Source: Candidatus Tayloriibacteriota bacterium
Lineage (GTDB): Bacteria > Patescibacteriota > Minisyncoccia > Phycocordibacterales > JAKAEA01
Direction of reading: 5' to 3'
Length of the DNA: 19,234 nt
Assembly: GCA_029288535.1 (NCBI GenBank)
Contig: JARIGY010000004.1
Location: 1-19,234 of the forward strand
This document shows positions 9,360 to 14,677 of the stretch, in pieces (positions within the stretch are counted from its first letter, which is position 1; the number at the start of each line of letters is the position of its first letter). The notes under the pieces are model-generated. The model worked only from the letters and a program-made list of their open reading frames with translations, did not search any database and was not told the DNA's origin. The translations under genes and the position numbers were made by a program.

Positions 9360-10013
9360 CTATCGCGGAGCTGGAATGTAGTGCGAGTACACCACCACCG
9401 TGCCGCCGCTTGATGTGTACGAATAGTACGAGCGGCGGTAATACACTTCCCGACCCGGCTGACTCGCGTAATACGAATTGGTCGGATACGAGTTCGTCGG
9501 GTAGGAATATGTCGGGTAAGAATATGTCCCGACACTCGGAGTCGGCAAACCCGGACCCGTATCGATCCCGCTACCGGAAACGACATACGTCGAGGTGTTG
9601 CCAGTCGGCAAACCTGAACCCGTACTCAAACTGGAACCGGTATTCAAACCCGAACCAGTAGAAACATATCCAGTCGAGACTCCGGCGCCGGTGGAAACGT
9701 AACTGGTAGAAACACCAGCACCAGTCGAAACGTACACCGTTGAAACGCCCGGCCCGGAATCGAGGTTTCTGCTCGAAACATAACTCGAGGAGATCGAGCT
9801 GCTTGTGAGCAGTCTCGAACTCGTTGGGACCGAGTACGTAGAGACGGAGTAGGTCGAGAGATTGCCCGAACGCAGCGGCTGCTGCGGACAGGCGGGCGGC
9901 GGACATGGCGCGGGTTGCCGCACATGCTGCTGGCCGCCATCGTTCCTGCCGCCGGCAAAAGCGATCGCCGGCAGAATGAAAACCAAGACGCAGATTGTCA
10001 TGAGACTCTTCAC
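9360..10013 (-). CDS. Secreted low-complexity repeat protein
   Basis: 217 residues from a GTG start. Residues 1-20 form a signal peptide (MKSLMTICVL..., cleavage after AFA). The mature protein is Ser/Thr/Gly/Tyr-rich with few charges. It has a Cys-Pro segment PCPPPACPQQP (36-46), STYSV repeats (53-62), three 11-residue repeats of the form GVSTxYVSTGA (89-121) with degenerate copies after, and five-residue xSYPT repeats (about 164-180). It ends in a Tyr/Arg-rich tail. Such composition suits an extracellular fibre, stalk or adhesin-like surface protein, but no family is recognised. GTG 10013 is chosen because GAGGTG lies upstream at Shine-Dalgarno spacing; ATG 10043 and ATG 10001 are alternatives. 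The gene has the best consensus promoter in the window and its own terminator, suggesting strong expression. Confidence 0.8.
   Translation of the reverse strand: MKSLMTICVLVFILPAIAFAGGRNDGGQQHVRQPAPCPPPACPQQPLRSGNLSTYSVSTYSVPTSSRLLTSSSISSSYVSSRNLDSGPGVSTVYVSTGAGVSTSYVSTGAGVSTGYVSTGSGLNTGSSLSTGSGLPTGNTSTYVVSGSGIDTGPGLPTPSVGTYSYPTYSYPTNSYPTNSYYASQPGREVYYRRSYYSYTSSGGTVVVYSHYIPAPR
9651..9749 (-). repeat. Three tandem 33-bp coding repeats
   Basis: Each unit encodes GVST-x-YVSTG-A/S. The copies differ at a few bases, mainly in the codon for the variable residue (Val, Ser, Gly). Degenerate units continue toward the C-terminus. Slippage here could change the protein's length. Confidence 0.8.
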
Positions 10014-10017
10014 GGTA

Positions 10018-10023
10018 CACCTC
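10018..10023 (-). promoter_or_regulatory. Shine-Dalgarno site deciding a GTG start
   Basis: GAGGTG (10023-10018) lies just upstream of GTG 10013, with GAGG ending 6 nt before it. It supports the GTG over the upstream ATG at 10043, which would precede this site. Confidence 0.55.
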
Positions 10024-10089
10024 TTTCGGTAATGCAACCCCATACGAGGGTCACGGACGTTTGTTTGTACGGAAAATTATTCTTTTAAG

Positions 10090-10161: not shown

Positions 10162-11841
10162 ATGCCTGTTTTTGACGAAGAAAAACAAAGTAAGCGGGTT
10201 GGAGAAATCCGCCAGCAGGAGGAAGAGGAACTGGCTCAGGTTCTTTCGGCCAAGTACGGGATAAGCTATATCGACCTCACCACGAGCGCGATCGACATGG
10301 AAGCATTGCGCGTCGTCGACGAAAAAACAGCGCGCGCAGCAAAGCTCGCCGTCTTCGACATGGTGGCCAAGAAAATAAAAGTCGCGGTGCTCGCTCCGGA
10401 AAACACCGAAACCCTAAAAACTATCGAGAGCTTCAAAACCAAAGGCTACATCCCCACGGTCTATATGACTTCGGACCTGAGCCTTGAGAAAGTCTGGAAG
10501 AGATACAAGGATCTTTCGTATTCCTTCGAAACGAAGAGCGGCGCGCTCAACATCGCCAATGACGAGATCGAAGCTTTCATCAAAACCGTAAAAAGCCTGC
10601 CGGATTTAAAGAAAACCCTGGAAGAAACCGTCGGTCAGAGCCAGAAATATAAAATCTCCCATCTTTTGGAACTCATGATCGCCGGCGCGCTCGCCCTAAA
10701 GGCTTCCGACGTGCATATCGAACCGGAAGAAAAGCAGGTCCGCATCCGCTACCGTCTGGACGGCGTACTTGTCGATGTGATGAATGTAGCAAACGAAGTG
10801 TATCACCTGCTCCTTTCCCGCCTCAAACTTCTCTCCGGCATGAAGCTTAACCTCTACGGAGCGCAGGACGGCCGCTTCAGCATCATCATGAACGACACCG
10901 AAATAGAAATCCGCGCGTCCATTCTGCCGAGCACCTACGCCGAATCCGTCGTACTTCGAGTTCTCAACCCCAATTCTATCGCTGTCGGTTTGGATGATAT
11001 GGGAATCCAACCAAAGCTTCTGGCGATCCTCAACCATGAAGTCGATAAGCCTGAAGGCATGATTCTAACGACCGGTCCGACCGGCTCCGGCAAAACCACC
11101 GCGCTCTACGCATTTCTGCGCAAAGTGTACACACCCGAACTCAAAATTCTAACTATTGAAAACCCGGTCGAGTACCACCTGAAAGGCATCGTGCAGACCC
11201 AGACAAGCACGAAAGACGAATACACGTTCGTCGCCGGTTTGCGTGCGGCTTTGCGACAAGACCCCGATGTGATCATGGTCGGCGAGATTCGCGACAGCGA
11301 AACCGCCGAGATCGCGGTCAACGCCGCCCTCACCGGCCACTTGGTATTTTCGACCCTTCACACCAACAACGCGGCCGGCACATTCCCCCGCCTCATCAAC
11401 CTCGGCGTCAATCCGAAAGTTCTTACTTCTGCGCTTTCTGTTTCCATGGCTCAGCGCCTCATGCGCCGCCTATGCCAGACCTGCAAAAAAGAAATTTCCA
11501 TCGAAGGAAGGAATAAAATGCTTATCGACAAAATCCTGACCAGCATAAAAGGCCTGCCGGAATATCTTCCGGCAGTTCCTACAAAAATATACGAGCCTAA
11601 CGGCTGCGCCGAGTGCAACCACACCGGCTTCAAAGGCCGCATCGGCATCTATGAGGCTATCCTGCGCACGCCAGAAATAGAAGAAGCGGTCATGAACAAC
11701 CCGAGCGAACGCGACATCTGGAAAGCCGCCGAAAACCAGGGCATTTTAAATATGAAACAGGACGGCATCATCAAGATTCTCCAAGGCATCACATCCATGG
11801 GCGAACTCGAGCGAGTTGTCGATATAGAGGGCGGATATTAA
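10162..11841 (+). CDS. pilB: Type IV pilus / type II secretion assembly ATPase (PilB/GspE family)
   Basis: 559 residues. This hexameric cytoplasmic ATPase powers pilus extension or pseudopilus assembly. The N-terminal domain (about 1-150) matches the GspE N-terminal module. The motor core shows Walker A GPTGSGKTT (305-313), the Asp box ENPVEY (333-338), Walker B DPDVIMVGEIRD (367-378) and the His box TGHLVFSTLHTN (391-402). Two CxxC pairs (438-441 and 482-485) form the zinc-binding tetracysteine motif typical of PilB/GspE and absent from PilT, which argues for an assembly rather than a retraction motor. No other pilus gene is in the window. An extended -10 box 9 nt upstream makes the mRNA nearly leaderless. 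The gspE name is equally defensible. Confidence 0.93.
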   Translation: MPVFDEEKQSKRVGEIRQQEEEELAQVLSAKYGISYIDLTTSAIDMEALRVVDEKTARAAKLAVFDMVAKKIKVAVLAPENTETLKTIESFKTKGYIPTVYMTSDLSLEKVWKRYKDLSYSFETKSGALNIANDEIEAFIKTVKSLPDLKKTLEETVGQSQKYKISHLLELMIAGALALKASDVHIEPEEKQVRIRYRLDGVLVDVMNVANEVYHLLLSRLKLLSGMKLNLYGAQDGRFSIIMNDTEIEIRASILPSTYAESVVLRVLNPNSIAVGLDDMGIQPKLLAILNHEVDKPEGMILTTGPTGSGKTTALYAFLRKVYTPELKILTIENPVEYHLKGIVQTQTSTKDEYTFVAGLRAALRQDPDVIMVGEIRDSETAEIAVNAALTGHLVFSTLHTNNAAGTFPRLINLGVNPKVLTSALSVSMAQRLMRRLCQTCKKEISIEGRNKMLIDKILTSIKGLPEYLPAVPTKIYEPNGCAECNHTGFKGRIGIYEAILRTPEIEEAVMNNPSERDIWKAAENQGILNMKQDGIIKILQGITSMGELERVVDIEGGY

Positions 11842-11883
11842 ATTTGCTTTTTATTGCGAAACAAAATTTGACAGCTCGGTATC

Positions 11884-11911
11884 TTGTCGAGTCTTTAGAA
11901 AAGAGTAAACT
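11884..11911 (+). promoter_or_regulatory. Possible promoter of the structured RNA
   Basis: TTGTCG (11884-11889) is 16 bp from TAAACT (11906-11911), four of six matches in each box. Transcription would begin near 11918, just before the long closing stem. A perfect TTGACA also occurs at 11868-11873 but has no good -10 box at the right distance. Confidence 0.3.
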
Positions 11912-11917
11912 GACTAC

Positions 11918-12131
11918 AGGTTTTATAGCAAGTCCACAACATAAATCTCCAGGCAATACTTTTAACACGGACGGTTGAAAGTTAAACAATCCTCTAAGGT
12001 GTTTCGCAGTAAATACCCGGAGGTATAACCAAGAGATCCTCGATGAATTGCTATGAGACCTAAAAGGGCCCTTTGCCTAGAGATTTATAACGTGGACGAT
12101 CAAATAAAAATCCGCATCAGTGCGGGTTTTT
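11918..12131 (+). ncRNA. Candidate structured non-coding RNA with terminator
   Basis: This 367-bp stretch between pilB and ruvB (11842-12208) has no protein gene. Its ends fold back on each other: GTCCAC (11932) with GTGGAC (12092), a symmetric AAC/AAC loop, ATAAATCTC (11941) with GAGATTTAT (12080), a C-A mismatch, then AGGCAA (11951) with TTGCCT (12073). That is 21 base pairs. Inside are a 9-bp hairpin ACTTTTAAC / GTTGAAAGT around ACGGACG (11958-11982), a two-part hairpin CCTC-GGTGTTT / AAATACC-GAGG (11991-12022), and a weaker CTC-AT / AT-GAG hairpin (12039-12056). A terminator closes the unit. It lacks the diagnostic sequences of tmRNA, RNase P, SRP and 6S RNA that I know. Identity unknown; the 5' end is approximate. 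Confidence 0.6.
12106..12131 (+). terminator. Intrinsic terminator after the structured RNA
   Basis: CCGCA-TCAG-TGCGG is extended by a T-G pair and five A-T pairs to an 11-bp stem ending in a T-run. Because A precedes and T follows, it can work on both strands. It lies 66 nt before the ruvB promoter. Confidence 0.85.
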
Positions 12132-12196
12132 AGCTTTTTAAATACTAGCATGAATCGATTTTTATGTCAAGCGCATCATTATGAAGCTAGGTAGTA

Positions 12197-12202
12197 TATA
12201 AT
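12197..12202 (+). promoter_or_regulatory. Consensus -10 box of ruvB
   Basis: A perfect TATAAT lies 6 nt before the ATG at 12209, in GTAGTATATAATGAAATA. No -35 box is evident. The spacing predicts a leaderless ruvB mRNA. Confidence 0.65.
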
Positions 12203-12208
12203 GAAATA

Positions 12209-13225
12209 ATGCCAGACGAACCTGCATCATTTGAGCCTGAAACCATCGCTCCGGAAGACAATAGTTTTCTCGATACCGCGCTGCGGCCATCGAAATGGGA
12301 CGAATATATCGGCCAAAAAAACATCAAAGACAACCTGCATATTTTGCTGCAGGCGGCTGAAGAGCGGAAACACCCGCCGGAGCATATTCTGTTTTACGGC
12401 CCGCCCGGCTTGGGCAAAACCACGCTCGCCCACCTCATCGCCAAAGAGCTCGGCGCGCAGATCAAGATCACTTCCGGTCCGGCTATCGAAAAAGTCGGCG
12501 ACTTGGCTTCTGTTTTAACCAACCTTTCTGCCGGCGATATTCTTTTCATAGACGAAATCCACAGGCTGAATAAAGCAATTGAAGAAGTTCTGTATCCGGC
12601 CATGGAGTCGGGCAAGCTCGATATCATCATCGGCAAAGGCCCGTCGGCCCGCACCATCCAGCTCGACCTGCCGCCGTTTACACTTATTGCAGCGACAACC
12701 CGCGTAGCCCTGCTCTCGTCCCCTCTTAGATCACGTTTCTCTGGAGGAGTTTTTCGCTTGGAGTTTTACAGCCAGAATGAAATTGAACGGATTGTGAAAA
12801 GATCGGCAAAAATACTTGGCATCGAGATCGGCGATGATGGCGCGGAAGAGATAGCCAAGCGTTCGCGCTTCACTCCGCGCACGGCAAACTATTTTCTCAA
12901 GCGATGCAGGGATTACGCCCAGGTCAAAAAACAAAAACTCGACAAGAAGACCGTAGACGAAGCGCTCGCCATGCTCGGCGTGGACGCGATGGGACTGACG
13001 CATGAAGACCGTTCCATTTTGAAAATCATCATAGAAAAATTCAACGGCGGGCCGGTCGGGATCAACACTATCGCCGCGGCAGCATCGGAAGAGGAAGCGA
13101 CTATTGAAGAAGTGCATGAGCCGTATCTTTTGCAGGTCGGGTTCATAGACAGGACGCCGAGAGGCAGAGTTGTGACCGAAGCGGGATACAGGCATTTGGG
13201 AATGACAAGTCCGAATTTGTTTTAA
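12209..13225 (+). CDS. ruvB: Holliday junction branch-migration helicase RuvB
   Basis: 338 residues, the normal length. RuvB is the hexameric AAA+ motor that, with RuvA, drives branch migration of Holliday junctions. Visible are [11 protein letters not shown] (26-36), Walker [10 protein letters not shown] (64-72), Walker [11 protein letters not shown] (111-120), sensor 1 AATTR (161-165), LRSRF (173-177) at the arginine-finger region, the sensor 2 segment [16 protein letters not shown] (222-237) and the winged-helix C-terminus ending [32 protein letters not shown] has two extra residues compared with the common LRDRFGIxxRLEFY. The gene is monocistronic by its own promoter; yebC and ruvC follow. 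ruvA is not in the window. Confidence 0.97.
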
Positions 13226-14443: not shown

Positions 14444-14677
14444 ATGATGCAAGAAGAAAACCAGGTGCAATTTATGACCGAAGAGGAAATGGAACTTGAA
14501 CTCGGCGAAGTCGATGAACTCGAAGTCGAGGAGGATGAGGAAGACGATGTTGTCGATGTGGACCCGGACGATACGGATGACGGAGATGATGACGACGAAG
14601 ACGATGAGGCTGCAAAAACCGATGATGACGACGAAGACGGGTTCGTGTCCGACTATTTCGGCAAAACCGAGTATTAA
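14444..14677 (+). CDS. Extremely acidic small protein
   Basis: 77 residues, of which 40 are Asp or Glu (18 Glu, 22 Asp by hand count) and only two are Lys. The N-terminal half is Glu-rich and may be helical (TEEEMELELGEVDELEVEE). The second half is a near-continuous Asp tract. A short non-acidic C-terminal end FVSDYFGKTEY looks like a defined motif. There is no signal peptide. Function is unknown. Such composition occurs in DNA mimics, histone- or RNA-polymerase-binding tails and metal buffers. The gene has its own -10 box and ends 1 bp from the convergent tyrS stop. Start 14447 (second Met) is equally possible. Confidence 0.8.
   Translation: MMQEENQVQFMTEEEMELELGEVDELEVEEDEEDDVVDVDPDDTDDGDDDDEDDEAAKTDDDDEDGFVSDYFGKTEY

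Follow-up and report, generated by a model that had tools for sequence, protein, structure and literature searches.

The bacterial 6S RNA, a molecule of roughly 180 nt, has its own promoter, binds RNA polymerase, and templates pRNA; it folds into a long closing helix plus additional stem-loops, and a large, mostly single-stranded central bubble lies between two long helices. In tmRNA, a long end-to-end helix closes a multi-branched RNA that carries a tRNA-like domain and a tag reading frame, and helix 8 of bacterial SRP RNA is a conserved tetraloop helix. The RNA described here is encoded between pilB-type and ruvB genes in the window, i.e., the whole 19,234-nt stretch of DNA that was analyzed. 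It resembles 6S RNA in its size, long closing helix, further stem-loops, and own promoter, but it has a four-helix junction and conserved helix sequences, and no large open central bubble is predicted. As in tmRNA, a long end-to-end helix closes several branches, but no tRNA-like domain was found, and the tmRNA model (RF00023) has no match at the locus. Like SRP RNA, it is small and structured and occurs throughout most of a lineage, whereas the end of its P3 arm is variable in sequence and length. With class A RNase P RNA (RF00010), the likeness would be that of a housekeeping structured RNA, but this genome has a separate RNase P candidate on another contig (C94; 93.1 bits, E = 1.5e-29, below the 100-bit cut-off), and the RNase P model has no match at the RNA locus.

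We searched the genome of origin with the models for 6S RNA (RF00013), SRP RNA (RF00169), RNase P RNA (RF00010), and tmRNA (RF00023), extended the RF00169 search to 41 genomes of the order, and covered the large SRP model through Rfam scans of the loci. The 6S model matched nothing in this genome, the window, or 28 further loci. For tmRNA, none of five weak matches in the genome exceeded the cut-off (best, 23.4 bits), and ARAGORN reported only a tRNA-Lys in the window, with no tRNA-like domain at the RNA. SRP RNA was matched in 0 of the 41 genomes (this one and 40 relatives), and the Ffh M domain (PF02978) had no match in this genome (95.6% complete, 107 contigs), with controls positive in 14 of 14 cases. 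The lineage may lack an SRP altogether, given these results for RF00169 in 41 genomes and for PF02978 in the one genome tested. None of these tests supports the identification of the RNA as 6S, SRP, tmRNA, or RNase P RNA, as the original prediction had anticipated. A riboswitch or cis-acting leader of ruvB does not fit, because the RNA lies on the strand opposite to ruvB and pilB.

At the gathering score, an Rfam 15 scan of the window returned only a tRNA at 1622-1694. Permissive searches yielded nothing but subthreshold matches, with a lowest E value of 0.18 for the region itself and of 0.039 across the 28 further loci (Phe_leader, in an extra hairpin of locus L008); no family recurred at the RNA. 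Thus, at the RNA in the window and at the 28 further loci, every Rfam 15 family stays below its cut-off, and measured against Rfam 15, the RNA family is new. A search of phage records gave no match.

The features of the locus are as follows, numbered by position in the window.

10162-11841, plus strand: pilB-type ATPase gene, convergent neighbor (named by eye; its protein served as a tblastn query)
11897-11934, minus strand: possible weak 3' end, with a hairpin at 11934-11912 followed by a U-rich stretch (sequence inspection)
12135 (approximately) to 11932, minus strand: RNA gene (fold, promoter, covariation, and model score)
11932-12097, minus strand: RNA body P1 to P4, four helices and a junction (folds, covariation, and model match)
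11932-11956, minus strand: 3' strand of the closing helix P1, pairing with 12073-12097
11958-11982, minus strand: P4 hairpin (11982-11973 with 11968-11958), with a conserved ACUUUU/AAAAG stem
11985-12052, minus strand: long arm P3, lower stem 12052-12038 with 11999-11985
12034-12022 with 12017-12004, minus strand: upper stem of P3, with a conserved tandem G-U motif (UGG/CUG)
12056-12071, minus strand: P2 hairpin of 5 bp (12071-12067 with 12060-12056)
12073-12097, minus strand: 5' strand of P1 (about 25 bp)
12105-12132, minus strand: hairpin in the 5' leader, not conserved
12142-12170, minus strand: sigma-70 promoter scoring 10 of 12, with -35 box TTGACA (12170-12165), a 17-nt spacer with an extended TG, and -10 box TAGTAT (12147-12142)
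12209-13225, plus strand: ruvB, divergent neighbor (named by eye; its protein served as a tblastn query)

Elsewhere in the window, a 227-aa open frame (9360-10043, minus strand) contains short repeats and many Ser, Thr, Tyr, and Gly residues and begins with a signal-like segment; by eye, it looks like a secreted low-complexity protein. A 77-aa, extremely acidic open frame with long D and E runs (14444-14677, plus strand) is flanked by ruvC-like and tyrS-like genes, both named by eye.

The original prediction was of a structured RNA read on the plus strand. The structural elements that it described (a long closing helix, internal hairpins, and a palindrome) are all present at the positions given, and no convincing protein gene covers them, a 66-aa minus-strand open frame (11789-11989) overlapping part of the region. 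On the plus strand, positions 11918-12131 fold far better than their shuffles (-62.8 kcal/mol, z = -5.02, 0 of 200 shuffles as good), so a structured element is indeed present. The strand itself did not hold up: the RNA is encoded on the minus strand. The first sign of this was that TTGACA promoters are aimed away from ruvB into the RNA. Over 11932-12098, the minus strand folds to -63.0 kcal/mol (z = -6.68), its minimum free energy (MFE) structure being identical to the centroid, compared with -51.2 kcal/mol (z = -5.19) for the plus strand, whose centroid retains only part of the MFE structure. Both flaws in the plus-strand helix are repaired on the minus strand, where the C-A mismatch becomes U-G and the AAC/AAC internal loop becomes GUU/GUU, in which two G-U pairs flank a U-U. 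The minus-strand fold was also better in 12 of 12 loci (the window included and L008, with its extra hairpin, excluded) and in 57 of 58 loci of a wider, overlapping set, with L047 as the exception.

The asymmetry between G-U and A-C cells points the same way. Across all model pairs, G-U exceeded A-C by 704 to 132 in 79 sequences, by 459 to 60 in 52 sequences, and by 204 to 29 in the 23 sequences of alignment A6; within the strand-symmetric P1 alone, the counts in the first two of these sets were 171 to 32 and 67 to 24. In the unguided alignment A2, the ratio was 119 to 14 over all pairs but 14 to 8 within P1. At its own locus (G000:C91:11928-12107), the covariance model scored 148 bits on the minus strand versus 52 bits on the plus strand. 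A plus-strand consensus was computed with RNAalifold, which returned 31 pairs, some of them A-C where the minus strand has G-U, and was rejected.

The RNA body is about 170 nt long. Its 64 model pairs were derived from A2 (12 sequences aligned by MAFFT with no structure model) together with single-sequence folds, whereas the model's structure guided the alignment of A4 (52 sequences) and A6 (23 sequences, all but one divergent); alignments A3 and A7, which mix sense and antisense matches, were excluded from all counts. In A2, which is favored over its slid versions because the structure was taken from folds of its own sequences, 90.2% of cells were paired, versus at most 48.3% with partners slid. 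Double changes occurred at 31 pairs in A2, versus 18.3 after shuffling, and the covariation score was 0.383 versus 0.207. In A4, 91.5% of cells were paired, and 54 of 64 pairs had double changes, with a covariation score of 0.499 compared with 0.199 after shuffling and at most 0.136 after sliding. The divergent sequences of A6 gave 88.5% paired cells, double changes at 54 of 64 pairs, and a score of 0.599. The closing stem (11932-11956 with 12073-12097), for which the original prediction had named covariation as support, displayed it in A4, with double changes at 24 of 26 P1 pairs and 94.4% of cells paired. The corresponding figures were 5 of 5 pairs for P2 and 9 of 10 pairs, with 94.1% of cells paired, for P4.

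Among the strongly conserved features is a P3 motif, AGGA...UGG / CUG...UCCU, which includes a tandem U-G/G-U pair. In A4, all 52 sequences retain the P3 G-C pair 96-134, and the U-G pair 94-136 and the G-U pair 95-135 are each retained in 47 of 52; in all, two P3 G-C pairs and one P4 C-G pair are invariant in the 52 sequences. The 12-nt palindrome AAAGGGCCCTTT, which overlaps P1 and P2, was by eye kept in none of the 11 other aligned rows. One genome (G041; locus L213, contig G041:C1) carries two copies of the RNA in tandem, about 7 bases apart in model coordinates. Their P3/P4 core is near-identical, with one difference seen, and P1 and P2 have diverged yet remain self-pairing within each copy, so that selection or gene conversion seems to keep the core and selection seems to keep the pairing of P1. 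L008 and L045, both from genome G085, have a long extra hairpin in the P2 region that makes the RNA about 70 nt longer than usual. This extra hairpin could be a small insertion.

The RNA is present in most of the genomes examined from the order and from the class. A plain DNA search matched 13 of 98 genomes, this one included. The first covariance model (R1) matched 235 of 297 genomes and 144 of 165 genera of the order and 59 of 237 genomes of the class; the second (R2) matched 19 of 379 genomes of the phylum, all within the class. The third model (R3), whose 23 source sequences include 22 divergent ones, raised the count to 165 of 237 genomes and 132 of 192 genera in the class and to 24 of 379 genomes in the phylum, and all 24 were again within the class. 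Among the 72 of 237 class genomes without an R3 match, some were lost to search filters, and true losses are possible; one genome (G307) was found in the class search and missed in the phylum search, which indicates that the filters lose weak matches. In the phylum search, the listed genomes without a match comprised 8 from the class and 12 from outside it. The count outside the class would then be 0 of about 347, with 335 unlisted nonmatching genomes placed outside by table order. Many genomes gave two matches per model search; wherever it was inspected, the second was an antisense echo of the same place, except for the tandem pair of G041.

A search for the P1 pattern found it in at least 118 stretches, and among the matches listed were Nomurabacteria, Zambryskibacteria, Taylorbacteria, Vogelbacteria, Tagabacteria, and other Parcubacteria. 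R2 matched 79 of 80 of the listed stretches at an E value of 1e-17 or better, leaving L140 unmatched. The class is most probably Paceibacteria (Parcubacteria). The RNA is thus lineage specific, as had been proposed, but the lineage is a whole class rather than a narrow one.

In almost every locus, the RNA is flanked by pilB and ruvB. By eye, translations of the first 13 loci revealed a PilB-like protein in 13 of 13 and a RuvB-like protein in 12 of 13, the 2-kb L012 locus ending too soon. In tblastn searches of 137 loci, some of which come from the same genome under two names, RuvB was divergent within 400 nt in 128, lay at 775 nt in L074, and was absent from 8; six of these 8 have less than 430 nt on that side, while L058 and L122 have 804 nt and no RuvB. 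PilB was convergent within 900 nt in 123 of the 137 loci, lay farther away in 3, was not found in 10, and was oddly placed in 1. Among the A6 loci, RuvB was found in 22 of 23 (not in L153, at a contig edge) and PilB in 23 of 23. For 21 class members that R3 found outside its own building set (18 hand-picked from the class listing and three from the phylum search), RuvB was present in 19, PilB in 20, and at least one of the two in all 21. There was no RuvB match within about 1.5 kb in L227 and L236 and no PilB match in L229, and PilB was more than 1 kb away in L225.

In all of the first 13 loci, the stretch separating ruvB from the RNA contains a TTGACA promoter aimed into the RNA. Among 127 distinct loci with enough upstream sequence, 110 had a promoter scoring at least 10 (of 13), compared with 8 of 127 after shuffling and 14 of 127 on the other strand; 17 had no high-scoring promoter. 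The strict form, TTGACA...TGnTAnnnT, was present in 105 of 133 loci. From the promoter in the window, transcription would start near 12135. The leader between the -10 box and P1 has a median length of 45 nt (109 loci). It is in this leader that the 11-bp "terminator" of the original prediction lies: the hairpin at 12105-12132 is real, but it stands between the promoter and the RNA body, so it belongs to the 5' leader rather than to the 3' end. Among 109 loci with a strict promoter, terminator-like leader hairpins were found in the ruvB sense in 1 and in the RNA sense in 9. Those in the RNA sense could attenuate transcription, and in L003, one was seen by eye soon past the -10 box. Downstream of the RNA, a strict terminator search covering up to 150 nt was positive in 25 of 134 loci, versus 0 of 134 after shuffling and 0 of 134 on the other strand; no clear intrinsic terminator was seen after the RNA in the window. 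On the ruvB side, a TATAAT box (12197-12202) ends only 6 nt before the ruvB ATG (12209), close enough that the ruvB mRNA may be leaderless.

Because the pilB-ruvB synteny is so strict, the region might instead hold a cis-acting element that couples the expression of the two genes, with divergent or convergent transcription tuning ruvB or the 3' end of pilB. The divergent RuvB in 128 of 137 loci and in 19 of the 21 loci fetched by the RNA model alone would fit such a role, as would a promoter that overlaps or adjoins the ruvB start, with the -35 box lying over the ruvB start codon in several relatives (by eye). We nevertheless consider it unlikely. Transcriptional interference needs a promoter but not some 60 conserved base pairs with compensatory changes, and a cis role leaves the conserved helices unexplained. 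Moreover, the RNA body is not antisense to the ruvB coding sequence, the gene order may be merely inherited, and a few loci lack one of the neighbors (RuvB in L058, L122, L227, and L236; PilB in L229).

Somewhat less probable still is a functional counterpart of 6S RNA that binds RNA polymerase, in which P1 would act as the downstream-like helix and P3 as the upstream-like helix, with P2 and P4 in the strands of the bubble. The similar size, the layout of a rod plus hairpins, and the consensus promoter agree with this proposal, and so does the failure of the 6S model to match anything in this genome. Against it, the same model is silent in the window and the 28 further loci, and the hairpins P2 and P4 nearly fill the predicted junction, so that the large open central bubble of 6S RNA is not predicted. 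In our judgment, a generic DNA mimic would also have no need of the strong conservation seen at the top of P1.

A highly diverged tmRNA or SRP RNA, lying below the detection limit of the models, is very improbable. The missing matches to SRP RNA (41 genomes) and tmRNA above the cut-off (this genome) do make both slots appear open; however, no tRNA-like domain was found in the window, and an SRP RNA would be without its protein in a genome with no Ffh M-domain match, albeit one that is 95.6% complete and in 107 contigs, and would have a variable P3 end unlike SRP helix 8. Least credible of all is a plus-strand RNA, either a ruvB 5' leader or a gene ending at the 12105-12132 hairpin: that hairpin is terminator-like, L047 (1 of 58 loci) folds better on the plus strand, and the plus-strand fold beats its shuffles, as the complement of a long helix must, but the G-U versus A-C asymmetry, fold energies, model scores, and promoter direction all oppose it, and the hairpin is not conserved.

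Overall, the evidence strongly supports an independent RNA gene that is lineage specific and absent from Rfam. This much of the original prediction, which envisaged an independent gene of about 200 nt, is upheld by the covariation, the lack of an Rfam family at cut-off, and the wide presence of the RNA, whereas its strand, its ends, and the role of its terminator had to be revised. Going one step further, we see roughly even chances that this minus-strand gene produces an independent noncoding RNA that acts in trans as a structural RNA across most of Paceibacteria. The consensus promoter suggests strong, constitutive transcription, and the transcript would end at intrinsic terminators where these are present. 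The RNA may then act in trans as a rigid scaffold, its long P1 holding a junction that would expose the conserved top of P1, the stem of P4, and the tandem G-U motif in P3 for contact with a partner protein. The conserved core looks like a putative binding surface. The partner would most likely be part of a housekeeping machine, such as RNA polymerase or the ribosome.

That most of the class carries the RNA points to a housekeeping role. It is plausible, at a little under even chances, that the RNA forms a separate class of housekeeping RNA, being an abundant ribonucleoprotein component of most Paceibacteria that was found in no genome outside the class, in a setting where no SRP RNA was detected across 41 genomes from the order and no 6S RNA in this genome. 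In our judgment, few RNA families span most genomes of a whole bacterial class and yet are absent from Rfam. With models, a structure, and a promoter in hand, the RNA is directly testable in strand-specific metatranscriptomes, and its conserved place beside ruvB makes it possible to locate the RNA even after its sequence has drifted. Paceibacteria are a large and mostly uncultured part of the CPR with very small genomes, and an RNA retained behind a consensus promoter in such genomes therefore likely matters to the cell. If it does form a housekeeping class of its own, it would replace or extend the canonical set of bacterial RNAs throughout the lineage.
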